Assembly: GCF_035474595.1 (NCBI RefSeq)
Contig: NZ_DATIND010000138.1
Location: forward strand, 1 to 38,328
DNA length: 38,328 bases
Reading direction: 5' to 3'
Source of the DNA: Longimicrobium sp.
GTDB taxonomy: Bacteria; Gemmatimonadota; Gemmatimonadetes; Longimicrobiales; Longimicrobiaceae
Shown: positions 7,987 through 27,663 of the stretch, piece after piece
How the letters are laid out: every line of letters starts with the position of its first letter
Position numbering within the stretch: position 1 is the first letter of the stretch
The notes under the pieces: generated by a model
The model's database searches: none
What the model was told of the DNA's origin: nothing
What the model saw: only the letters and a program-made list of their open reading frames with translations
Made by a program: the position numbers and the translations under genes

Positions 7987-10443
7987 CTACTTTTCGCTCG
8001 CCGCCTGGCGGTCCTGCTCGGCGGGGCGGGGGATGTCGACGCCTTCGCTGGCCGGCGGCGGGGGCGCGGGGCCGTCGCGCACCACGCGCGGCTCGCCCAT
8101 CAGCGCGAGCTGGAAGATCTGGTCCATCCGCTCCACGTAGTCGAAGGTCATCCCCTCGCGCACGTCCTCGGGCACGTCGCGCAGGTCGCGCTTGTTCCCC
8201 GAGGGCAGGATCACGTGGGTGATGTTGGCGCGGTAGGCGGCCAGCACCTTCTCCTTCACCCCGCCGATCTCCAGGATCTTCCCGCGCAGCGTGACCTCGC
8301 CCGTCATGGCGATGTCGTGCCGCACCGGCCGCTCCGACAGCGAGCTGGCGATGGCCAGCGTGACCGCCGCGCCGGCCGACGGGCCGTCCTTGGGCGTGGC
8401 GCCCACGGGGAAGTGCACGTGGATGTCGTAGTCGGCGAAGGCGTCGCGGGGGATGCCGAGCTCGGCCGCGCGCGAGCGCACGTAGCTGAACGCGGCGTTC
8501 ACCGACTCGCGCATCACGTCGCCCAGCAGCCCGGTGATGATCAGGCGGCCGGTCCCCGGCATCTTCAGCGCCTCGATGAACATCAGCTCACCGCCCGACG
8601 CGGTCCACGCCAGCCCCGTCACCACGCCCACCTCGGGCGCCACCTCGGCCGGCGTGGGGTTGTAGCGCGGGTAGCCGAGAACTTCCTCGATCGTCTCCCG
8701 CGTCACCGCCCACTGCTCGCCCTTGCCGGCCGCCTTGTCCGCGGCCAGGTAGCGCATCACCGCGGCGAGCGAGCGGCGCAGGTTCCCCACGCCGGCGTCG
8801 CGCGCGTAGCCGCGGGAGAGGAAGAGCAGCGTCTCGTCGTCGATCGTCACCTTCGCCGGGTCCAGCCCGTGCTCGGCCACGATGCGCGGGAACAGCCACT
8901 CGCGCGCGATCTCGATCTTCTCCTCGGGCGTGTACCCGGCGATGCGGATCTCGATGAAGTAGTTGCGCAGGTCGCGCGGGATCCGCCCGAAGTCCGCCGC
9001 CGAGGCCACGAAGAAGACGTCGGAGAGGTCGAAGGGCACGTCCAGCCAGCGGTCGGTGAAGGTGTCGCGGTTCTCGGGGTCGAGCGTTTCCTCCATCGCC
9101 TCGACCGGGTCGCCGTCCACGTTCCCCAGCCCGATCTCGTCCAGCTCCTCCAGCAGGAACACGGGGTCGCGCACGCCCGCGTCGCGGATCAGCTGCATCA
9201 GCTTGCCCATCTGCGCGCCGCTGCGGCCGCGCTTGCTGCCCACCAGCTGCGCCTCGCTGCGCCCGCCCAGCTCCAGCCGGACGACGGGGCGGTTGAGTCC
9301 CTTGGCGATGGCCTGCGCCAGCGTGCGCTTGCCCACCCCCGGCGGCCCCACCAGGCAGGGGATGGGCCCGCGCAGGTCGCCGCGCAGCTCCGCCACGGCG
9401 ATCACCTCCAGGAGGCGCCGCTTGGGCTCTTCCAGCCCGAGGTGCTCGTTCTCGATGGCGGTGCGCACCGCCTCCAGGTCGAACTTCCCGCCGTCGGCCC
9501 GGCGCTGCCAGGGGAGCGCCACCAGCGCGTCGATGTAGGCGCGGATCTCCTGCGCCTCGGTGGCCGTGGTGGAGTTGGAGCGCAGCCGCTCGGCCTCGCG
9601 GCGGGCCACGGCGGCCACGCGCGGCGGGAGCTGCGAGCGCTCCACCAGGCGCAGCGCCTCGTTGGCCTCGCGCTCCACGGGGTCGACTTCTCCCAGCTCG
9701 GCCTGCAGCGCCTGGATGCGGCGGCGGATCTCGTCGCGCCGCTCGCGCCCGCCGGCGGGGAGCGGGCCGGTGCCCGCCTCCTCGGCGCCGGTGGCGTGCT
9801 CCACCTCGCGCAGGTGCTCCCACTCGCCCTCCAGCGAGTGGAGCACGAACTTCAGCCGGGCCAGCACGTCCAGCTCCTGCAGCACCGCGTCGCGGTCGGG
9901 AAGCTTCAGGTTGCAGAGCGTGGCGGCCAGGTCGGCGAAGCGCCCGGCGTCGCCCAGGTTCATGCGCAGGATGCGCGGCACCTCGTCGGGGACGCGCTCC
10001 ACCGCGTTGGCCACGGCGCTGACGGTCGCGACGATCTTCTCGATCAGCGGGTCGGCCTCTTCCGCGGGGGCGGGCACCTCATCCACCTCGTGCGGGGTGG
10101 CGGAGTAGTAGCCGTCCTCCAGCCGCACCTGGGTGAGGCGGATGCGGCGCAGCCCCTGGAGCGTGGTCTGGATCGTCCCGCCGGGAAGGTTCAGCCGGTC
10201 CAGCACGCGCACGGCGGTGGCGATCTTCTCCAGCTCGCGCGGGTCCAGCGGAAAACCGTCGTCCATGGTGGAGACCATGGCGACGATCAGGTCGTTCTCG
10301 GGGTGCTTGCTGAGCGCCTCGACATTGGGGGCAAAGCCGATCTGCAGCGCCGTGGCCCCGCCGGGGAACACGATGGTGCTGCGGATGGGGAGGACCGGGA
10401 TGCGGTCCGGAAGACTCTGCCGGGACGCTTTCGACGACGCCAT
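7987..10443 (-). CDS. lon: Lon-type protease with degenerate AAA+ module
   Basis: This 818-residue protein has full Lon layout: LON substrate-binding domain (about 14-210), helical region, AAA+ module (about 335-570) and S16 protease domain. The proteolytic dyad is intact, with Ser689 in PKDGPSAG and Lys732 in GGVKEK. The ATPase is not canonical. Walker A reads GPPGVGKRT, so Arg373 replaces the Mg-binding Thr. Walker B is FLLEELDE instead of FLLDEIDK. The sensor-1 Asn is Ala483, the usual arginine-finger position is Tyr495, the sensor-2 Arg of GVRNLER is Gly553, and the pore-loop aromatic is lost (RGRSGAQMG). It may bind but not hydrolyse ATP, or it may be a specialised second Lon. ATG 10443 directly follows the TAG of the DUF1499 gene. 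Confidence 0.92.
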   Translation of the reverse strand: MASSKASRQSLPDRIPVLPIRSTIVFPGGATALQIGFAPNVEALSKHPENDLIVAMVSTMDDGFPLDPRELEKIATAVRVLDRLNLPGGTIQTTLQGLRRIRLTQVRLEDGYYSATPHEVDEVPAPAEEADPLIEKIVATVSAVANAVERVPDEVPRILRMNLGDAGRFADLAATLCNLKLPDRDAVLQELDVLARLKFVLHSLEGEWEHLREVEHATGAEEAGTGPLPAGGRERRDEIRRRIQALQAELGEVDPVEREANEALRLVERSQLPPRVAAVARREAERLRSNSTTATEAQEIRAYIDALVALPWQRRADGGKFDLEAVRTAIENEHLGLEEPKRRLLEVIAVAELRGDLRGPIPCLVGPPGVGKRTLAQAIAKGLNRPVVRLELGGRSEAQLVGSKRGRSGAQMGKLMQLIRDAGVRDPVFLLEELDEIGLGNVDGDPVEAMEETLDPENRDTFTDRWLDVPFDLSDVFFVASAADFGRIPRDLRNYFIEIRIAGYTPEEKIEIAREWLFPRIVAEHGLDPAKVTIDDETLLFLSRGYARDAGVGNLRRSLAAVMRYLAADKAAGKGEQWAVTRETIEEVLGYPRYNPTPAEVAPEVGVVTGLAWTASGGELMFIEALKMPGTGRLIITGLLGDVMRESVNAAFSYVRSRAAELGIPRDAFADYDIHVHFPVGATPKDGPSAGAAVTLAIASSLSERPVRHDIAMTGEVTLRGKILEIGGVKEKVLAAYRANITHVILPSGNKRDLRDVPEDVREGMTFDYVERMDQIFQLALMGEPRVVRDGPAPPPPASEGVDIPRPAEQDRQAASEK

Positions 10444-11213: not shown

Positions 11214-12206
11214 GTGATCGTCGTGATGCCGGTGGCGGGGAAGGGCACGCGCCTTCGCCCGCACACGCACGTTACGCCCAAGCCGCTGCTGAAGGTGGGC
11301 GACAAGCCCGTCCTTTCCTACATCCTGGACGACCTCCGCCAGCTGGGGGTGCACGAGGCGGTGCTCATCACCGGGCACCTGAAGGAGAAGGTCGAAGAGT
11401 ATATGGGCGCCGAGTACCCCGACTTCCACGCCGAGTACGTGGAGCAGGTGGAGCAGAAGGGCACCGCCGACGCCATTCGCCTGGCCGAGCCGTTCGTGCA
11501 CGAGGACCTGCTCATCATCTTCGTCGACACTTTGTTCGACGCGGACCTGACGGTGGTGAACCGGCTGCCCGACGACGTGGCGGGGGTGATCTGGGCCAAG
11601 GAGGTGGAGGACTACCAGCGCTTCGGCGTGATCCAGACCGACGAGCGCGGCTGCATGCAGCGGATCTTCGAGAAGCCGAAGGAGCCCGTCTCGAAGCTGG
11701 CCAACATCGGCCTGTACTACATCCGCGACTGGAAGCTGCTGTTCGAGGGGATCCGCCACACCATGCAGCAGCCCACCGGCCCCGGCGGCGAGTACTTCCT
11801 GACCGACGCCTTCCAGTACATGGTGGACCACGGCGGCAGGCTGCAGGTGGAAGAGGTGAAGGGGTGGTACGACGCGGGGAAGCCGGAAACGCTGCTGGAA
11901 ACCAACCTGCACGTGCTTTCCACCACGCGCGGCAAGAGCCCCCCGGCGAAGGAGGGCGTGACGGTGCACGAGCCCGTGCACGTGGCCGACGGTGTGACGC
12001 TGGAGGATTGCGAGATCGGCCCGAACGTCACCATCAGCTCGGGGAGCACGGTGCGGCGCTCGAAGCTGCGCGACTGCATCGTCGGCGCGAACGCCGAGAT
12101 CGACGGCTGCGACCTGCACGACTCGCTGATCGGCAACGACGTGAAGGTGCGCGGCGTATCCGGACAGGTAGACCTGGGCGACCACTCCGTCGTCGCGCCG
12201 GAGTAG
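11214..12206 (+). CDS. Sugar-phosphate nucleotidyltransferase
   Basis: The 330-residue enzyme transfers a nucleotide from NTP to a sugar 1-phosphate. The N-terminal signature is VAGKGTRLRPHTHVTPKPLL (residues 7-26), with the G-x-G-x-R loop and the Pro-Lys that contact the nucleotide. FVDTLFDAD carries the metal-binding Asp region, and FEKPKEPVSKLANIGLYY is the sugar-binding segment. After residue 250 the sequence turns into hexapeptide-type strands (VTLEDCEIGPNVTISSGST), a short left-handed beta helix as in long RmlA/GlmU-like enzymes. It probably makes dTDP- or UDP-glucose. GTG 11214 is chosen from GGAG 6 nt upstream. A strong terminator follows. Confidence 0.9.
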   Translation: MIVVMPVAGKGTRLRPHTHVTPKPLLKVGDKPVLSYILDDLRQLGVHEAVLITGHLKEKVEEYMGAEYPDFHAEYVEQVEQKGTADAIRLAEPFVHEDLLIIFVDTLFDADLTVVNRLPDDVAGVIWAKEVEDYQRFGVIQTDERGCMQRIFEKPKEPVSKLANIGLYYIRDWKLLFEGIRHTMQQPTGPGGEYFLTDAFQYMVDHGGRLQVEEVKGWYDAGKPETLLETNLHVLSTTRGKSPPAKEGVTVHEPVHVADGVTLEDCEIGPNVTISSGSTVRRSKLRDCIVGANAEIDGCDLHDSLIGNDVKVRGVSGQVDLGDHSVVAPE

Positions 12207-12228: not shown

Positions 12229-12261
12229 CGGGCCCCTCCGCCTGGGTGGCGGAGGGGCCCG
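12229..12261. terminator. Bidirectional terminator
   Basis: CGGGCCCCTCCGCC (12229-12242) pairs perfectly with GGCGGAGGGGCCCG (12248-12261) around TGGGT. It lies between the plus-strand nucleotidyltransferase and the minus-strand Cys-rich gene and can end both. Confidence 0.8.
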
Positions 12262-12285
12262 GTTCGCGTGGCCGGACGGCGGAGC

Positions 12286-12588
12286 TCAGCGGCAGGCGAA
12301 CTTGCAGGAGTTCACCTCGCCGGCCGTGGGGTAGCACGGGTTCACCGTCAGCGAGCAGGTGTTGATGCACGAGTAGTTCCAGCACGAGCCGTCGGTGACG
12401 CAGTAGTACGTGCCGCACACGCCGTCGCAGCTGTCCCAGCAGGTCTGCTGCCCGTTGCAGGTGCCGCCCTCGCAGGTGTTCCACTCCGTCGCCACGTGGC
12501 CGCGCACGGTCCCGCGCTCCTTCTCCTCCACGTGGGTCTCGAACGACGTCACCCGCAGGTCGTCCACGTCGAGCTTCATCTTGCGCAT
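12286..12588 (-). CDS. Pinensin-like lanthipeptide precursor (Cys-rich RiPP candidate)
   Basis: This 100-residue protein has a leader-like start, MRKMKLDVDDLRVTSFET, then RGTVRGH near residues 26-31. Both are features I associate with pinensin-type lanthipeptide precursors of Bacteroidota and Gemmatimonadota. The remainder holds 12 Cys, of which eight directly follow Ser or Thr (T38-C39, T43-C44, T49-C50, S53-C54, S68-C69, S73-C74, T77-C78, S94-C95). Dehydration of Ser/Thr and addition of Cys would give (methyl)lanthionine rings; disulfides are the alternative. ATG 12588 has GGGAGA about 6 nt upstream. No lanthionine synthetase, transporter or leader peptidase lies in the window, so the precursor is orphan here. 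Confidence 0.75.
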   Translation of the reverse strand: MRKMKLDVDDLRVTSFETHVEEKERGTVRGHVATEWNTCEGGTCNGQQTCWDSCDGVCGTYYCVTDGSCWNYSCINTCSLTVNPCYPTAGEVNSCKFACR

Positions 12589-12920: not shown

Positions 12921-13058
12921 AGCGCCGGTAGACGACCACCGCCGCCCATCACAGCAGAAAGTCGAGGATGGGAGCAGGACTTTCTTAGGAGCGCCTGTAG
13001 ACGACCACCGCCGCCCATCACAGCAGAAAGTCGAGGACGGGAGCAGGACTTTCTCAGG
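12921..13058. repeat. 69 bp direct tandem duplication
   Basis: Copies 12921-12989 and 12990-13058 differ at only three positions. Each runs from AGCGCC(G/T)GTAGACG to GGACTTTCT(T/C)AGG. It lies just downstream of the M20 peptidase stop and is probably non-coding. With two adjacent copies and no spacer it is not a CRISPR. Confidence 0.85.
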
Positions 13059-13084
13059 AGATCGCGGAGCCGCGGATTGCGCCT

Positions 13085-14296
13085 CTACGCCTCCACGCCC
13101 GCGGCGGCCAGGATGATGAGCAGCGCGCGCTCCACGCCCAGCGCGCCGTTCTCGTTGCTGTACCACTCGTCGGTGGTGTGGATGCCGCCCGAGTCGCCGC
13201 CCACGCCGATGGCGATGGAGGGGATGCCCAGCGCCATGGGTACGTTGGCGTCGGTCGACGAGCCCACCAGCTCCGGCTTCTGTCCCAGGCCGTAGGTGAT
13301 GGCCGACGCGGCCTGCACCAGCGGCTCGCGCGGCTGTGTCTGCCCGCTGGGGCGGTCGCCGATGACGGCGACGGCGGAGGTGAGCGGCTCGGTGTTCTTG
13401 TGCCGCCCCGCGTTCTCGCGCTCCACCACGCGGGCCAGCACCGCGCGCACGCTCTCCTCCAGCCGCGGGAGCACGCCGGGCGCCTCGCTGCGCATGTCCA
13501 GCTCCATCCATGCGCCGCCGGGGATGGCGTTGATGCTGGTGCCGCCGCCGATCCGCGCCACGGTGAGCGCCGTGCGCGTGGGCTCCGGCAGCGCCAGCGC
13601 CGCGATCTCCGCCGCCGCCGCACCCAGGGCGACGATGGGGTTCGCCGCGCCGCGGTCCGCCCACGAGTGCCCGCCCGGGCCGGCCACCTCCACGCGCAGC
13701 CGCCGCGAGCCGATGGCGCGGTGCACGATGCGGCGCAGCCCCGACCCGTCCAGCGCGATGAAGCCGGCCGCCTGGCGCAGCTCGCCGCCCTCGCCGAACA
13801 GGTGCTTCACCCCGCGCAGGTCGCCGGCGCCCTCCTCGCCCACGGTGCCGACGAACACCACCGGGCGCTTCGGCCGCACCCCGGCGCGCGCCAGCACCCG
13901 GGCCACGGCCAGCATTCCCGCCAGCCCGCGCGCGTTGTCGGTGATGCCGGGAACGTAGATGCGCCCGTTCTCGCGCCGCGGCGTGAGGTCCGTGCCCGCC
14001 GCGAACACGGTGTCCAGATGCGCCGCGACGACGATGGGGCGCGGATCGCCGTTGGCGCCGGGGATGGAGCCGATGACGTTTCCCTCGCCGTCGCGCCGCA
14101 CCCCGGCCAGGCCGATCTCGCGGAAGCGCTCCGCCAGCCGGGCGCCGCGCGTCTCCTCGCCGAACGGCGGCGAGGGGATGACGACCAGCTCCAGCTGGTC
14201 GTTCAGCGTGTCGGCGTCGGTCTGGTGGGCGAGCGCGCGGACGGGCCTGAGGCGAGCGTCGGAAAGCAGGGGCGGGACCGCCGGCGTCGAAGGCAT
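13085..14296 (-). CDS. M20-family zinc peptidase (PepT-like)
   Basis: The 403-residue enzyme carries the co-catalytic metal ligands of the M20 family. It has AAHLDT (His93, with Asp95 assisting), TDNARG (Asp120, bridging), VGEEGAGD (catalytic Glu154 and ligand Glu155) and a C-terminal GGIHTTDEW histidine. Between them lies the dimerisation lid domain (VAGPGGHSWADRG onward). Such enzymes release amino acids from di- or tripeptides or hydrolyse acylated amino acids. No signal peptide is seen, so it is probably cytoplasmic. Start 14296 is uncertain: the ribosome site is weak, and an in-frame ATG 25 codons upstream exists. It could help recycle peptides; no link to the nearby lanthipeptide precursor is shown. 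Confidence 0.88.
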   Translation of the reverse strand: MPSTPAVPPLLSDARLRPVRALAHQTDADTLNDQLELVVIPSPPFGEETRGARLAERFREIGLAGVRRDGEGNVIGSIPGANGDPRPIVVAAHLDTVFAAGTDLTPRRENGRIYVPGITDNARGLAGMLAVARVLARAGVRPKRPVVFVGTVGEEGAGDLRGVKHLFGEGGELRQAAGFIALDGSGLRRIVHRAIGSRRLRVEVAGPGGHSWADRGAANPIVALGAAAAEIAALALPEPTRTALTVARIGGGTSINAIPGGAWMELDMRSEAPGVLPRLEESVRAVLARVVERENAGRHKNTEPLTSAVAVIGDRPSGQTQPREPLVQAASAITYGLGQKPELVGSSTDANVPMALGIPSIAIGVGGDSGGIHTTDEWYSNENGALGVERALLIILAAAGVEA

Positions 14297-18931: not shown

Positions 18932-19294
18932 ATGACCACCGGCGTGAATGTCGATGTCTACTGGCTGCCGTACTGCACCACCTGCCAGAAGGCGGCCGCG
19001 TACCTGGAGCAGAAGGGCGTCTCCATCCGCGGCTACCGCAACCTGAAGGAAGAGCCGCTATCGGAAGACGAGGTGCGCGCGCTGGCCGCGAAGGTCGGCG
19101 GCGTGGAGAAGCTGTTCTCGAAGCGCGCGATGAAGTACCGCCAGATGGGACTGCACGAGCGCGAGGTCGCGGAGGACGAGATGGTGCGGCTGATGGCGCA
19201 GGAGTACACCTTCGTCACCCGCCCCGTCATCGCCCGCGGCGGTCGCGCGACGGCGGGGTTCTCGGCGAAGCGGCTGGACGAGTTGGTGGGGTGA
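18932..19294 (+). CDS. ArsC/Spx-family thioredoxin-fold protein, intact copy
   Basis: This 120-residue protein begins [25 protein letters not shown], with a CTTC active-site-like motif (Cys15 and Cys18). It has the [25 protein letters not shown]-terminus typical of ArsC/Spx/MgsR proteins. Members reduce arsenate, or act as Spx-type redox regulators; the CxxC form is closer to Spx/YffB. No ars genes are nearby, so an arsenate role is not supported. A second, 5'-truncated copy lies 4 kb downstream on the far side of the low-GC island (23294-23617), about 86% identical over 106 residues. Confidence 0.88.
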
Positions 19295-19699
19295 AGCACC
19301 GGGTGTATTCGGGAACCCGTGAATCGTTGGCGTTGACGACGACAGGAGATACGATCCAAGTCGGGTTCATCCCAATTTCGCCGAGCTCCATTCCGGTTGA
19401 GCGGTTCAGAACAGTTTCGAGTCATCGAGTCACACAGAGGAATAGAGGATCGGATCGAAGGCGCGATGACGTTCTCCATGTCTCCGGTTCTCTGTGTGCC
19501 GATCAAAGCCGTTGTGGATCGAGTTCTGACCGGAATCCATTCACCGTACTTGACAATGTTTGTGCGCAACGACTTCCTTGCCAGGAAGCGCTGGTGAGGT
19601 TGCTCGGTGAGCACCCGCAGTGGAGCACATCAAATTGAACGTGCCTAAATTCCGCTTCTCAAGCGCCGGAACTTCCCACCGATCCCCCATCCGACAGAA
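19295..19699. other. Low-GC leader of the island, no convincing gene
   Basis: These 400 bases fall to about 53% GC, against about 70% in the flanks. A short inverted repeat (CACACAGAG at 19431-19439, CTCTGTGTG at 19490-19498) is present. A TTGACA at 19550-19555 could be a -35 element, but no good -10 follows at the proper spacing. The region presumably holds the promoter of the large NACHT-type gene. A frame of 66 residues (19397-19597) is not convincing. Confidence 0.55.
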
Positions 19700-22600
19700 A
19701 TGAGCAGCAATCATTCCGTCGTGTTCCGCTCCGAAATCCGCCGATCAGGATCACTCCTGGCCAGATATGGATTATTGCTGACGTTGAGCGCTTGCGGCTG
19801 GAGCAGCGCCGATCCACTCATTCTCACCCTGCAGCGATCACCTGATGGGGGTAGAATCTGGAGTGTCGCGGAGACCGAAGCGGGCTGGGTGGCCATCGGT
19901 CCGAGTGGGACGTTCAACAGTTTGGATCACGGGCTCACGTGGAAGCGAGTCGGTCCGTCTCCCCCTAAGGGAATTCAACTCTTCACTACACCTACGCGAT
20001 TGTATGCCGCGGGTGCAGGCTGGTCCCGTTCTCTGGACGGAGGTCGAACATGGTCAGCCAGTTCACCCGTGGACATTACCGACATGGTGGTCAAAGGTGA
20101 AACTCTCGTCGCGACTTCGGACGCCGGTATCATTCGCAGCATCGATGGGGGCGATACCTGGTCCAACACGGGTGGCGACATCTGGTCCGACAGTAGCGGC
20201 AGTGTCCGGTCCGACAGCGGGAACCTCCTGTCCGGCATCTTCCGCTCTCTGGGATTGATGCGCAATCGATGGCACATCGAATCAACGACGCGGGGGATCT
20301 ACGCGACGGATGCACAAAGGGCAGGCTATTCAGAGGATGGCGTTCAATGGGAGTTCCTGCCGGGACCGGTGCGTGCGGTTGGTGCACGACGCGGCGCCTT
20401 GCTTCGATTGCTGTCTTCCGGCGACACCCTTTACGCACAGGTGGACAGCACAATCTTGGAATCGCGCGATCATGGCCGCACTTGGCAGACGGCAGTAGAA
20501 AACCTCCCCGGCGAGATGCGCCTCGTTGGGGTTCGTAGCAGTACGTTTTACAGTGAAGATCCCAGTGACTGCTCACCGCCTTTGCGGTTGCCACGAGAAC
20601 TTGCGATCCGGTGCGCTCCTGCCATGGCAAACGACGTTCGCTCGATTTCAGGCTGGGTCGTGGCAAGTACAGAAAAAGGAGTATACCGGAGCGCCCACGA
20701 CAGTTCGAACTGGGAGCCGGCTAGCCAAGGCATTCCGGCCCAAGTCGAAAAAATGGTGAGTTCCGGGAACCAGACGGTAGCGTTTTCGTCGAATGGTGCT
20801 TTCATCCGATTAACCGGGACCTCGAAATGGTCGCGTTTGCCGAGCGATTATGATACGCTCAGGGATGCCGTAGGTCATGAGGGAGAACTGTCCGCGACAA
20901 CGCTTTTCCGTGTGGTTCATTGCGACTCGTTCTCCACTGGGTGTGTGTACACGGCATTAACTCGTGTACATGGCACGTCAACCCAGGACTATTCCACGCA
21001 GTGGATCATGCTTCGTTCCTTTGCACGCGAGGATAGCAATCTGGTATTGATGACTAATGATTCGACTCAGGCTGTCTCTCTTCTCGTGTCGCACGATTTA
21101 GGGCAAGGCTGGGATGTTGCGAGTCCAATGCCGGAAATTGATTCAGGCATCCGCCTCGCCGGGATAAACTATCCGGCCGTGTATCTCCGCGATTCGATAC
21201 TCTACCTCAGAGGCACGTCTTACCTACCCACTGAGACGTCATTCTGGGCAAGCACGGACTGGGGGAAACGATGGATCCCGATTCGAGGGTTCGGAGAGAA
21301 TAATGATGTCGAGGTCCTCGCATTTGCAGGTAATACCGCGTATATTGGAACGATTAGTGGTAAATTGGCAAGACTAGAGTGGCGGCGCGGTATTCCCGAA
21401 ATACGTAACTTGGCGGCAGACGGTGTGACGGGGGCAATCAAACACCTCTGGGTAGACCCAGAATACCCCAAGGTGGTAATCGCCGGCGGAGATTCCAAGC
21501 TTTTCTGGAGCGATAATGGGGGGACCAATTTTCAGGAGGTTTCTCTCGGTGAACGAGCAGATACAGTGGAGTTGAAAGGTCTGTTTGACATCGGCGGTCA
21601 GCGGTTCCTGACAACCACTCGTGGTATCTACTTGCTGCAAGACAACATTCCGCGTGCAGGGCCGCTCGGCCGCGGTGTATCCGCCATTGTGGAATGGCAC
21701 AAACGCCATCATGACGCGCTCTGGTACAAACCGCTCTTAGCTGTGGGAGTTAGTGTCGGCACGTATGCGGCGGGGCTGCTCGCGCTTCTCCTTATGGCGT
21801 GGAGGCGTGGGAGCGCCGCCTTGAGACGGACGCGGCTACGGCGTGTTATGCGCCGGGTGCTGCTGGAAGCTCCGGGACTATCCCGCTGGGCTCTCTTCCT
21901 GGGATACAGGAGGCGCCTCGGCGAGGACCGGATCATCAGCCAAGCTGGAACCGGCTTCTTCGGCCTACCGGCTGAGGACGTCACAGGGGTTCCCATCCAC
22001 GTAGAGGAGCAGGGGAGGACCCTGGTCACTCGCATTGCCGAAGCGGTGGAGGCGCAGCGGACCTTGCTGTTGCTCGGAAGTGGCGGGGCAGGGAAGACCA
22101 CTGTTCTGGGACGGCTCGCATGGCTGGCACTGCAGAACAATCTCCCGCAGTCACTGCGTGGCTATCGTCCCATCCTAGTTCCTGCCTCGTACTACCGGGG
22201 AGACTTAACCGAGGCGATTGCCGACGTGCTGCGCGAGCAGTACGGGGTGGACGTCTCCGCAGAGACGCTGGTCCCACAGCTTGAGACCGGTGCCTTCCTC
22301 ATACTGTTTGACGGGGCCAGCGAGATCGAGAGCGCCGAAAAGGAATCGGCGCTCGACGCCTTAATCCGCCAAGCGAAGAACGTCGACTTCATCCGTTGCC
22401 GCTTTGTGATTGCCAGCAGGCCGGTGGTGGGTTATGTGCCCGAGGTACCGACCATTCGCCTTCTTCCCCTGTCGCCGGATGTCGTGTCACTGCTCCTTCC
22501 GCGATACCATCTCGGTCCCGTCGGGGAAGCGCGCGTACGCCGGCAACTCGAGAAGTTCGGGAACCTCCCCATTGCACCCCTGTTGTTCACGCTCGCCGTA

Positions 22601-23266
22601 GTCGACAGGGATGCCGCCTCTGACGACTGGACACGGGCGGGGTTGTATCAACGCTACTTCCGACGTCTGTTGGGCGTCGACGGGGACGGTGGGCGGCTAC
22701 AATGGGCGGGGTGGCGGATGGTGCTAGGTCGAGTCGCGGGCTGGTCGTTGCTGGACACGGGACTACGGGGGGTAGGAGTGCTGCACGAGGATCTCGTCGC
22801 CCGGTTGCAGCACCCCGATCCGGCCATCGATAACCTTAGCCTCTCGCAGCGCCTCACGGAGTTCTTCGGCGTGAAACTACCGGAGCGGAGCGGAGCGCTG
22901 CACCTGGTCAAGAGCTTGGCTGCGGCTGGTATTCTCAATGGTGGTCCGCCGAAGCGCTGGCGGTTCGCCCACGATACGTTTGAGGAGTTCTTCGCAGCCG
23001 CTCACTTAGTGGACACGCTGGAGACGACCGGCGCGTGGCCCAACGTGGAGAAGTGGCGAGCGAGTCCTGAGCGTATCGCCGAGTTTCGCGAGGTACTTTC
23101 GTTTGCCTTAGAGATGCAGGGACAACATCTCTTTGGGGGTGATGTGGCCGATTATCCACAGGAATGGCGAGGGATGGAGACCCTCAAGCCGCTGGACGGG
23201 AACGTTGTCTCAGGGGCGCCTATGACGACTCAAGCCCAGGCTGGGTTTTCTGCCAATGCGACATAA
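19700..23266 (+). CDS. Transmembrane NACHT-type NTPase with BNR propeller sensor
   Basis: The 1188-residue protein starts with a signal-like helix and lipobox LSAC (Cys32). A long extracytoplasmic part (about 45-660) carries S-x-D-x-G-x-T-W (BNR/Ycf48-type) repeats at about 74-81, 110-118, 146-154, 209-217 and 254-262, and later ASTDWGKRW and WSDNGGTNF. A single membrane helix spans 678-700, followed by an Arg-rich stretch (RRGSAALRRTRLRRVMRR) that places the rest in the cytoplasm. There follows a NACHT-type ATPase with Walker A GSGGAGKTT (793-801) and Walker B FLILFDGASEIE (Asp871). The distal FAHDTFEEFFAAAH (1089-1102) matches the helical end seen in NACHT/STAND proteins. Base composition is lower than in the neighbours, so it was probably acquired. 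Defence or signalling is inferred; no effector domain is visible. Confidence 0.85.
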   Translation: MSSNHSVVFRSEIRRSGSLLARYGLLLTLSACGWSSADPLILTLQRSPDGGRIWSVAETEAGWVAIGPSGTFNSLDHGLTWKRVGPSPPKGIQLFTTPTRLYAAGAGWSRSLDGGRTWSASSPVDITDMVVKGETLVATSDAGIIRSIDGGDTWSNTGGDIWSDSSGSVRSDSGNLLSGIFRSLGLMRNRWHIESTTRGIYATDAQRAGYSEDGVQWEFLPGPVRAVGARRGALLRLLSSGDTLYAQVDSTILESRDHGRTWQTAVENLPGEMRLVGVRSSTFYSEDPSDCSPPLRLPRELAIRCAPAMANDVRSISGWVVASTEKGVYRSAHDSSNWEPASQGIPAQVEKMVSSGNQTVAFSSNGAFIRLTGTSKWSRLPSDYDTLRDAVGHEGELSATTLFRVVHCDSFSTGCVYTALTRVHGTSTQDYSTQWIMLRSFAREDSNLVLMTNDSTQAVSLLVSHDLGQGWDVASPMPEIDSGIRLAGINYPAVYLRDSILYLRGTSYLPTETSFWASTDWGKRWIPIRGFGENNDVEVLAFAGNTAYIGTISGKLARLEWRRGIPEIRNLAADGVTGAIKHLWVDPEYPKVVIAGGDSKLFWSDNGGTNFQEVSLGERADTVELKGLFDIGGQRFLTTTRGIYLLQDNIPRAGPLGRGVSAIVEWHKRHHDALWYKPLLAVGVSVGTYAAGLLALLLMAWRRGSAALRRTRLRRVMRRVLLEAPGLSRWALFLGYRRRLGEDRIISQAGTGFFGLPAEDVTGVPIHVEEQGRTLVTRIAEAVEAQRTLLLLGSGGAGKTTVLGRLAWLALQNNLPQSLRGYRPILVPASYYRGDLTEAIADVLREQYGVDVSAETLVPQLETGAFLILFDGASEIESAEKESALDALIRQAKNVDFIRCRFVIASRPVVGYVPEVPTIRLLPLSPDVVSLLLPRYHLGPVGEARVRRQLEKFGNLPIAPLLFTLAVVDRDAASDDWTRAGLYQRYFRRLLGVDGDGGRLQWAGWRMVLGRVAGWSLLDTGLRGVGVLHEDLVARLQHPDPAIDNLSLSQRLTEFFGVKLPERSGALHLVKSLAAAGILNGGPPKRWRFAHDTFEEFFAAAHLVDTLETTGAWPNVEKWRASPERIAEFREVLSFALEMQGQHLFGGDVADYPQEWRGMETLKPLDGNVVSGAPMTTQAQAGFSANAT

Positions 23267-23293
23267 ATCATTCCGTGGTTACGCGGAAATGCA

Positions 23294-23617
23294 GAGTGCA
23301 CCACCTGCCAGAAGGCGGCCGCGTACCTGGAGCAGAAGGGCGTCTCCATCCGCAGCTACCGCAACCTGAAGGAAGAGCCGCTTTCGGAAGACGAGGTGCG
23401 CGCGCTGGCCGCGAAGGTCGGCGGCGTGGAGAAGCTGTTCTCGAAGCGCGCGATGAAGTACCGCCAGCTGGGCCTGCACGAGCAGCAGCTCTCGGACGAC
23501 GACCTGGTGCGGCTGATGGCCGAGGAGTACACCTTCGTCACCCGCCCCGTCGTCGTCCGCGGCGGTCGCGCGACTGCGGGCTTCTCGGCCAAGCGCGTGG
23601 ACGAACTGATCGCTTGA
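23294..23617 (+). pseudogene. ArsC/Spx-like gene, 5'-truncated copy
   Basis: Identity with the 18932-19294 gene begins abruptly at the CTTC motif and runs to TGA 23615-23617. The first 14 codons and the start are missing. The frame directly follows the TAA of the NACHT gene, separated by ten sense codons, with no ATG or GTG before residue 34 of the parent protein. Identity is patchy at DNA level: near-complete over the first 170 bases and low in the middle (HEQQLSDDDLV versus [11 protein letters not shown]). The copies are therefore older paralogues, not a fresh target duplication. Confidence 0.8.
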
Positions 23618-27426: not shown

Positions 27427-27663
27427 ATGTACTACCAGACCGCGGATCCCTATAACGATGACGGCGGCGGCTACGGCGGCGGTGGCGGCTACGGCGGCGG
27501 CGGTGGCGGCAGCGGCACGGGCGAGGATACCGGGATCACCGGCGGCACCGATCCCGGCACCACGCCGACGCTGAATCCGGGGCCCAACGGCTGGTGGGAG
27601 TTCTTCAACGGGGCGTGGCACTGGATGACGGACCCCATCCCCAAGACCATGCTCGCACCCTGA
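27427..27663 (+). CDS. Small Gly-rich protein
   Basis: The 78-residue protein is MYYQTADPYNDD followed by a run of Gly with Tyr (GGGYGGGGGYGGGGGG), a Thr/Gly/Pro linker (TGITGGTDPGTTPTLNPG) and an aromatic C-terminus NGWWEFFNGAWHWMTDPIP. The aromatic end with four Trp and two Phe is too structured for chance reading. The Gly/Tyr run recalls flexible or structural linkers. ATG 27427 is the last before the distinctive part; AGAG precedes it by about 6 nt. No signal peptide, and I recognise no family. It could be a small structural protein or a peptide precursor. Confidence 0.5.
   Translation: MYYQTADPYNDDGGGYGGGGGYGGGGGGSGTGEDTGITGGTDPGTTPTLNPGPNGWWEFFNGAWHWMTDPIPKTMLAP

Follow-up and report, generated by a model that had tools for sequence, protein, structure and literature searches.

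A small Cys-rich peptide gene on the window (the whole 38,328-nucleotide stretch of Longimicrobium sp. DNA analysed here, contig C138 of the 6.57-Mb draft genome G000, which comprises 163 contigs) was identified as probably encoding one of the substrates of a class I lanthipeptide system that spans the genome, in which scattered precursors sharing one leader would be processed in trans by clustered enzymes, in the manner of the prochlorosins. The evidence for this consists of the leader itself, the number of precursors that carry it, its co-occurrence with a lanthipeptide dehydratase domain, the placement of Ser and Thr around Cys in the cores and the content of a gene cluster on contig C23.

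Precursor gene and its surroundings

The earlier note on this DNA had proposed a pinensin-like lanthipeptide precursor with 12 Cys, and an ORF for such a peptide is present (Table 1). The peptide was found to match the NCBIfam model leader_pinensin (NF038180) at residues 5-30 with 25.6 bits, the curated cut-off being 24, and the leader and GTVRGH stretches on which the proposal had been founded are both there. NF038180 was the only match in NCBIfam, while the Pfam search returned no match at E<=10; a Nif11-type leader was absent from the peptide in both searches. The ATG at 12588 was also the start chosen by a codon-usage gene caller. All 12 Cys were found to lie in the core, the C-terminal two thirds of the peptide, with Ser or Thr directly before eight of them, as had been noted, compared to 2.9 expected (p=0.00035, Cys fixed and other residues shuffled). 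In the PDB, only theromacin, a Cys-rich antimicrobial peptide, was matched, and weakly so (E=0.14). A phage origin of the precursor was considered and rejected, with PHROGs giving no match at E<=1.

Table 1. Features of the precursor gene and its two syntenic neighbours in the window
Feature	Position	Strand	Remarks
Precursor peptide gene	12286..12588	-	100 aa; ATG at 12588, stop at 12286-12288; orthologues at the same site in two other species
Leader, residues 1-31, MRKMKLDVDDLRVTSFETHVEEKERGTVRGH	12496..12588	-	NF038180, 25.6 bits
Leader match	12496-12579		HMM of 60 own-genome leaders, E=1.5e-13
Cys-rich core, residues 32-100	12289..12495	-	12 Cys, 14 Ser/Thr
Conserved block TCWDSCDGVCGTYYC, residues 49-63	12400..12444	-	Alignment with G003 and G006 copies
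Nucleotidyltransferase with hexapeptide repeats, syntenic left neighbour	11214..12206	+	PF00483; outside the precursor system
M20-family peptidase, syntenic right neighbour	13085..14296	-	PF01546; unlikely to belong to the precursor system

The precursor gene does not adjoin a synthetase on contig C138, unlike the arrangement of a classical lanthipeptide gene cluster. The statement that the window encodes no partner enzyme holds for LanC, the LanB N-domain, the LanB C-domain and C39 peptidase, RiPP enzymes to which no match was found on this contig; it needs correcting as regards proteases, since general ones are encoded there, namely the M20-family peptidase (13085-14296) and a Lon-like protein of 818 aa (7987-10443, named by eye only).

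Two further elements were seen by eye in the flanking sequence. A sequence of ~65 bp is present in two near-identical head-to-tail copies (~12930-13060) between the precursor and M20 peptidase genes, and a long GC-rich inverted repeat (~12229-12262) lies where the nucleotidyltransferase gene and the precursor gene converge, possibly serving both as a shared terminator.

Size and scatter of the precursor family

A search for more precursors with the same leader, as the earlier note had advised, identified at least 150 in the genome of the window. With the window peptide as query, 133 matches at E<=1 were obtained from this genome, and the NF038180 model gave 99 matches at E<=1, of which 19 were above its cut-off. 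A leader HMM (A1), built from 60 leaders of the own genome, matched 150 of 150 scored candidates at E<=0.01, a number which is a lower bound since 150 were scored of 387 first-look candidates. Among other genomes, the same HMM identified at least 150 precursors in G003 (150/150), at least 149 in G006 (149/150), 85 in G009, 71 in G010 and 50 in G016, with lower copy numbers in G001 (22), G007 (11), G013 (6) and G005 (1).

Own-genome sequence amounting to 1.01 Mb (87 regions and the window) was also scanned by leader pattern, resulting in 163 short ORFs in 80 sources, compared to four in the same 1.01 Mb reversed. When a GTV motif and at least two Cys were required in addition, 143 ORFs were retained compared to none in the reversed sequence. 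The codon-usage caller independently called 156 of the 163 as genes. These leader-type ORFs have a median length of 70 aa, with cores that are 15.5% Cys and contain up to 19 Cys each, and at 2-kb linkage they fall into 95 groups, 68 of which are single genes, the largest regional sets having nine members. The own genome was thereby found to combine a conserved leader, variable cores and scattered genes, as is the case for prochlorosin-like systems.

Two candidates for a local element accompanying the precursors were rejected. An all-vs-all comparison of the non-precursor genes of 88 sources, performed for a recurrent neighbour that could be a local partner, returned only general families at the top, the commonest (named by eye) being sensor-kinase-like proteins in nine regions and ABC ATPases in seven, and nothing specific to the precursors. 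The motif CACCTGC was enriched upstream of the precursors, but this is an artefact and not a shared regulatory motif, because most occurrences are Thr-Cys codons of the preceding tandem precursor.

Co-occurrence of the leader with a dehydratase domain

The lanthipeptide dehydratase domain PF14028, the elimination domain of a split LanB, was identified in 10 of the 21 genomes of the bacterial family, which is probably Longimicrobiaceae (G000, G001, G003, G005, G006, G007, G009, G010, G013 and G016), and the leader HMM matched exactly these ten and none of the other 11. By hand calculation (21 choose 10), a split this perfect has a chance of 1 in 352,716 if the genomes are independent, a value that overstates the significance because the 21 genomes are related. 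LANC_like matches are distributed more widely (13/21), with G002, G004 and G008 having one and neither the leader nor PF14028. Across the phylum, a leader match was found in 14 of 395 genomes.

Named records found by an alignment search with PF14028 include two of the family, JAHWJJ010000021 and JAQBQD010000155 (L212), both labelled Gemmatimonadetes bacterium. Of 32 loci listed, the best 12 (L211-L222) were scanned for precursors. A leader-type Cys-rich ORF was found in six, namely L212, another Gemmatimonadetes locus, one of Ignavibacteriales, one of Thermoanaerobaculia and two of Acidobacteriota, and in none of the other six. Among the more distant loci L213-L222, five of ten have one such precursor.

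Placement of Ser and Thr around Cys

Positions around Cys were compared over 162 own-genome cores with at least two Cys (one core being dropped), with Cys fixed and the other residues shuffled. Ser or Thr was found directly before Cys (-1) in 44.5% of cases compared to 23.8% after shuffling (z 17) and five residues before it (-5) in 43.7% compared to 23.6% (z 16), with depletion at -2 and -3. A Cys-Cys spacing of 4 was also enriched, and where a Cys is followed by a second one at +4, the first has Ser/Thr at -1 in 80% of cases. Positions at -5 still showed the excess when those with Cys at -4 were set aside (27.1% vs 20.1%, z 5.6). Ser/Thr at -1 was likewise raised where no Cys follows at +4 (34% vs 23%), which indicates that other ring sizes, or other reasons for this placement, exist.

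The many small rings that the earlier note had considered possible from adjacent Ser/Thr-Cys are probably not formed, the partner of such Ser/Thr more likely being another Cys some five residues further on. At the last Cys of a core, no clear excess of preceding Ser/Thr was found (19% compared to 21.5% expected in the own genome; 26% vs 20%, z 1.6, in other genomes), and adjacent residues as mutual ring partners were set aside for this reason, although G016 taken alone (35% vs 18%, z 2.1) speaks against doing so. Judged from these positions, lanthionine rings that run N-to-C and enclose four residues fit the Ser/Thr pattern better than an isolated Ser/Thr-Cys dipeptide would.

Greedy matching of Ser/Thr to the 1072 Cys of these cores gave 973 upstream matches (702 expected) and 724 downstream matches (638 expected), corresponding to 91% vs 66% and 68% vs 60%, respectively. 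A private upstream Ser/Thr at a distance of 3-8 residues was available for every Cys in 103 of the 162 cores, compared to 15.7 after shuffling, and an excess of such full matching was seen in each of five other genomes. In 114 non-redundant cores of G003, G006, G009, G010 and G016, which represent part of the precursors of these genomes and mostly the best-scoring ones, Ser/Thr occupied -5 in 46% of cases vs 24%, with 93% of Cys matched upstream vs 65%. For the window peptide, all 12 Cys have their own upstream Ser/Thr at 3-8 residues (p=0.004). In the numbering of a 97-aa form (all positions are three higher in the 100-aa form), the assignment is T31-C36, T35-C41, T40-C47, T46-C51, S50-C55 and T57-C60 in the first half, and T62-C66, S65-C71, S70-C75, one of T74/S76/T78 with C82, T85-C92 and S91-C96 in the second.

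These peptides could instead be secreted, defensin-like and disulfide-bonded, with the shared leader serving for export only and Cys paired together, an explanation that we regard as unlikely. The even number of Cys in the window peptide, the retention of Cys at 94% of aligned positions (see below) and the weak theromacin match are what this would lead one to expect. However, an even number of Cys is not preferred in the family (90/162 own-genome cores, p=0.18; 62/114 elsewhere), the placement of Ser/Thr around Cys is far above chance and more strongly so upstream than downstream, and the leader tracks the lanthipeptide dehydratase domain (10/10 and 0/11). Of the two alternatives in the earlier note, disulfides or a partner acting in trans, the latter is the better supported, a split LanB/LanC system being encoded elsewhere in the genome.

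Candidate modification enzymes encoded elsewhere in the genome

A search of the own genome for lanthionine synthetases, also advised in the earlier note, identified four LANC_like matches, on contigs C136, C87, C25 and C23, the last as part of the split LanB/LanC system; the genome is therefore not without a synthetase, the outcome that would have told against a lanthipeptide. The C136 match is a LanM-like protein, next to which lie two small ORFs whose leader is unrelated. That on C87 is a kinase-type synthetase (by eye), likewise accompanied by small ORFs with a leader of a different type. The LanM-like protein of C25 was found ~4.6 kb from one member of the pinensin-type precursor family.

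The cluster on C23 (L065) was found to consist of a LanB fragment at the contig end, a PF14028 protein of 346 aa, a LanC of 683 aa and six leader-type precursors, followed by an ABC transporter of 603 aa, an HlyD-type protein and an S8 protease (subtilase). G003, G009 and G016 show this gene order in full, G016 having its protease, adaptor and transporter beyond the precursors, and parts of it can be seen in G001, G006, G007 and G010. PF04738 fragments of LanB were identified in the own genome on C4 and C23 only, both of them cut by contig ends; their overlap is 86% identical and they represent different copies. A complete LanB copy of 1075 aa is present in G003. By gene content the system can be categorized as class I, with PF04738 on C4 and C23 and with PF14028 and PF05147 on C23. 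The C23 LanC is close to LanM-type cyclase domains.

That the real partner is of class II, namely the LanM of C25 or C136, is a less probable explanation than disulfides. The family member near the C25 enzyme would suit it, as would the processing of prochlorosins by a LanM (according to the accessible part of PMC10027976). Set against this are the unrelated leader of the small ORFs near the C136 LanM, the LANC_like matches of G002, G004 and G008, which occur without the leader, and the lone leader-type precursor of G005, which sits in a split-LanB cluster. The C25 enzyme may nevertheless act on some of the precursors.

The G005 precursor (L204, 14000-14242, - strand) was observed to repeat the three-residue unit [ST]-[SG]-C. 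The LanC of this genome is 405 aa long with a CCG motif and without a C-terminal extension. Perhaps a different cyclase sets a different ring spacing in G005.

Extension of the C23-type LanC

C23-type LanCs are 673-704 aa in length, with the LANC_like match spanning residues 65-440 in the own-genome copy, and two Cys-His-Gly (CHG) motifs, rather than CCG, were found in all eight of them; such motifs are zinc-ligand sites of LanC. The C-terminal extension was modelled with an alignment (A4) of four rows only (L211, L212, L218 and L220), the own-genome copy being 53% identical to L211, and the predicted model has a mean pLDDT of 79.9. Foldseek placed TglHI at the top for this model (E 7.6e-7), and VIA-align gave Z values of 12.5 (8hci) and 12.3 for TglHI and 11.2 for 3dee. 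The matched chain is presumably TglI, judging from its length. RRE-type rows followed at lower values (lasso RREs 5v1v, 6.7, and 6jx3, 6.2; TbtB, 6.0; PqqD, 5.8; MibB, 5.7), among unrelated rows of similar Z. On the strength of the predicted fold, we take the extension as a putative leader-recognition (RRE-like) domain.

The resemblance to a chain of the TglHI complex also bears on a different chemistry, by which a DUF692 (MbnB-TglH type) enzyme would modify the Ser/Thr-Cys dipeptides. One such enzyme is encoded in the own genome (C58, L305), but PF05114 was found in only five of the 21 family genomes, all five with at least 50 pinensin-type precursors. Five genomes that do have the leader lack it: G001, G005, G007, G013 and also G006, which is 98% complete and has at least 149 precursors. 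Moreover, it is LanC that carries the TglI-like domain, and the last Cys of a core is not preceded by Ser/Thr above chance. We therefore give this chemistry marginally less credence even than a LanM partner.

Synteny and conservation

The nucleotidyltransferase and M20 peptidase that flank the window gene were also found at loci of two relatives (L197 and L198), where they enclose three tandem precursors in G003 and one in G006. G006 and two of the three G003 copies retain the block TCWDSCDGVCGTYYC almost intact, whereas the remaining G003 copy has an altered version. Orthologue-like reciprocal pairs were selected at >=50% identity, resulting in 41 distinct pairs (44 rows, three pairs occurring twice). 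Pooled over these, leaders had a dN/dS of 0.53 and cores one of ~0.56, and aligned core positions were kept for Cys in 288/306 cases (94%), Thr in 195/249 (78%), Ser in 83/126 (66%) and unlisted residues in 250/573 (44%). That Cys is conserved above Thr or Ser counts against the lanthionine reading to the extent that disulfides would require it too. Ser/Thr that only precede a Cys (89%) and those that only have a Cys at +5 (86%) were conserved to a degree by which this position test does not separate them.

That the clustered precursors alone are used and the scattered ones are decayed relics, as in-frame stops within the matched stretch of several paralogues and the predominance of single genes (68/95 groups) might suggest, is the least probable explanation of all, given that three species share the window gene in this location, along with a conserved block of its core, and given the pooled core dN/dS and the retention of Cys over the orthologue-like pairs.

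Proposed system and its relation to known systems

In the class I system that we favour, the leader (L-x-L-D-x-D-x-L-x-V-x-S-F ... G-T-V-x-G/A) would be bound by the RRE-like domain fused to the C-terminus of LanC, and probably by LanB too. The split LanB, with separate glutamylation and elimination proteins, would dehydrate Ser/Thr of the core, and LanC would join each Cys to a dehydro residue upstream of it, in most cases with four residues intervening, so that overlapping rings form a ladder (as many as 12 rings in the window peptide). The clustered ABC/HlyD system may then export the product and the clustered subtilase cut off the leader. Dehydration, ring topology, export, cleavage and the expression of the window gene itself are all inferred. 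The products might act against competitors or fungi, or in signalling. Class I lanthipeptide enzymes are tRNA-Glu dependent.

A more far-reaching reading, put forward tentatively and with slightly more doubt than belief, is that of a class I factory with more than 150 substrates, in which the domain fused to the cyclase reads the leader and a ring code (Ser/Thr to Cys at +5, every four residues) yields ladders of 12 or more thioether rings from almost any core that obeys it.

The leader type itself is already known, in that an NCBI model names such leaders. Pinensins were reportedly described by Mohr et al. in 2015. In the accessible part of PMC7268733, pinensin is reported to have a split LanB with a separate elimination protein, and pinensin-associated LanCs are described as LanM-like. 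The present system shares with pinensin the NF038180 leader, the split LanB with a separate elimination protein and a LanC close to LanM-type cyclase domains. It differs in having a precursor apart from the enzymes, at least 150 precursors and long cores with up to 19 Cys; the putative RRE-like domain fused to LanC may be a further difference.

Systems with one enzyme and many substrates are, in the accessible parts of PMC10027976, PMC12328550, PMC9872173 and PMC10783134, class II. Twenty-nine substrates are given there for ProcM (PMC10027976) and 79 for SyncM (PMC12328550); the former source also describes clusters of the prochlorosin-like type as 'the only example' of a LanM with such high promiscuity and links the CCG motif to the promiscuity of ProcM. 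The present family resembles prochlorosins and SyncA in its single conserved leader, variable cores, scattered or tandem precursors and shared enzyme in trans, the trans partnership being inferred here. It is unlike ProcM and SyncM in the class I split LanB and LanC, in CHG in place of CCG, in a leader that is not of the Nif11 type and in roughly twice as many precursors. The similarity to TglHI lies in the fold predicted for the LanC extension (8hci, Z 12.5), but this domain belongs to a lanthionine cyclase and a TglH-type enzyme is not consistently present. The gene call is ordinary, a known leader model having fired, while the system is unusual: it would combine pinensin-type machinery with prochlorosin-like logic in class I, with a larger repertoire, an apparent fused recognition domain and a chemistry deduced from sequence.

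Lanthipeptide clusters without known relatives have been predicted by antiSMASH in Longimicrobium terrae (PMC7291104; also the accessible part of PMC11271474). 'Gemmatimonad' does not occur in the main text of PMC7268733, and the accessible parts of PMC8692599, PMC4662063, PMC11251773 and PMC11651109 describe no such precursor family; nor was a scattered precursor family in this phylum found described in the open-access PubMed Central literature, as far as its text was accessible. If the proposed system is correct, no natural set of lanthipeptide substrates served by a single set of enzymes would be larger in the literature searched, where the published maximum found was 79, and it would be a class I one-to-many system, of which that literature describes none. 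At least 150 natural substrates with clear ring statistics would allow the choice of ring topology by one cyclase across unrelated cores to be tested, and a cyclase with its own leader-binding domain, if that is what it is, would be a practical tool for libraries of polycyclic peptides.

Other features of the window

A small Gly/Tyr-rich ORF of 78 aa (27427-27663, + strand), ending in the aromatic stretch WWEFFNGAWHWM and without a Pfam match, was also observed and could be another secreted or modified peptide. Within 18932-23617, ~309 bp of an ArsC-like gene (18932-19294) was found to be repeated near 23297-23604 with 94% identity, the two ArsC-like copies flanking an ORF of 1188 aa with a C-terminal NACHT-like NTPase (below cut-off). 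A similar duplication in G003 (91% over 314 bp) surrounds a different gene, with PKD domains, and as the duplication there flanks another gene, the site looks like an insertion hotspot.
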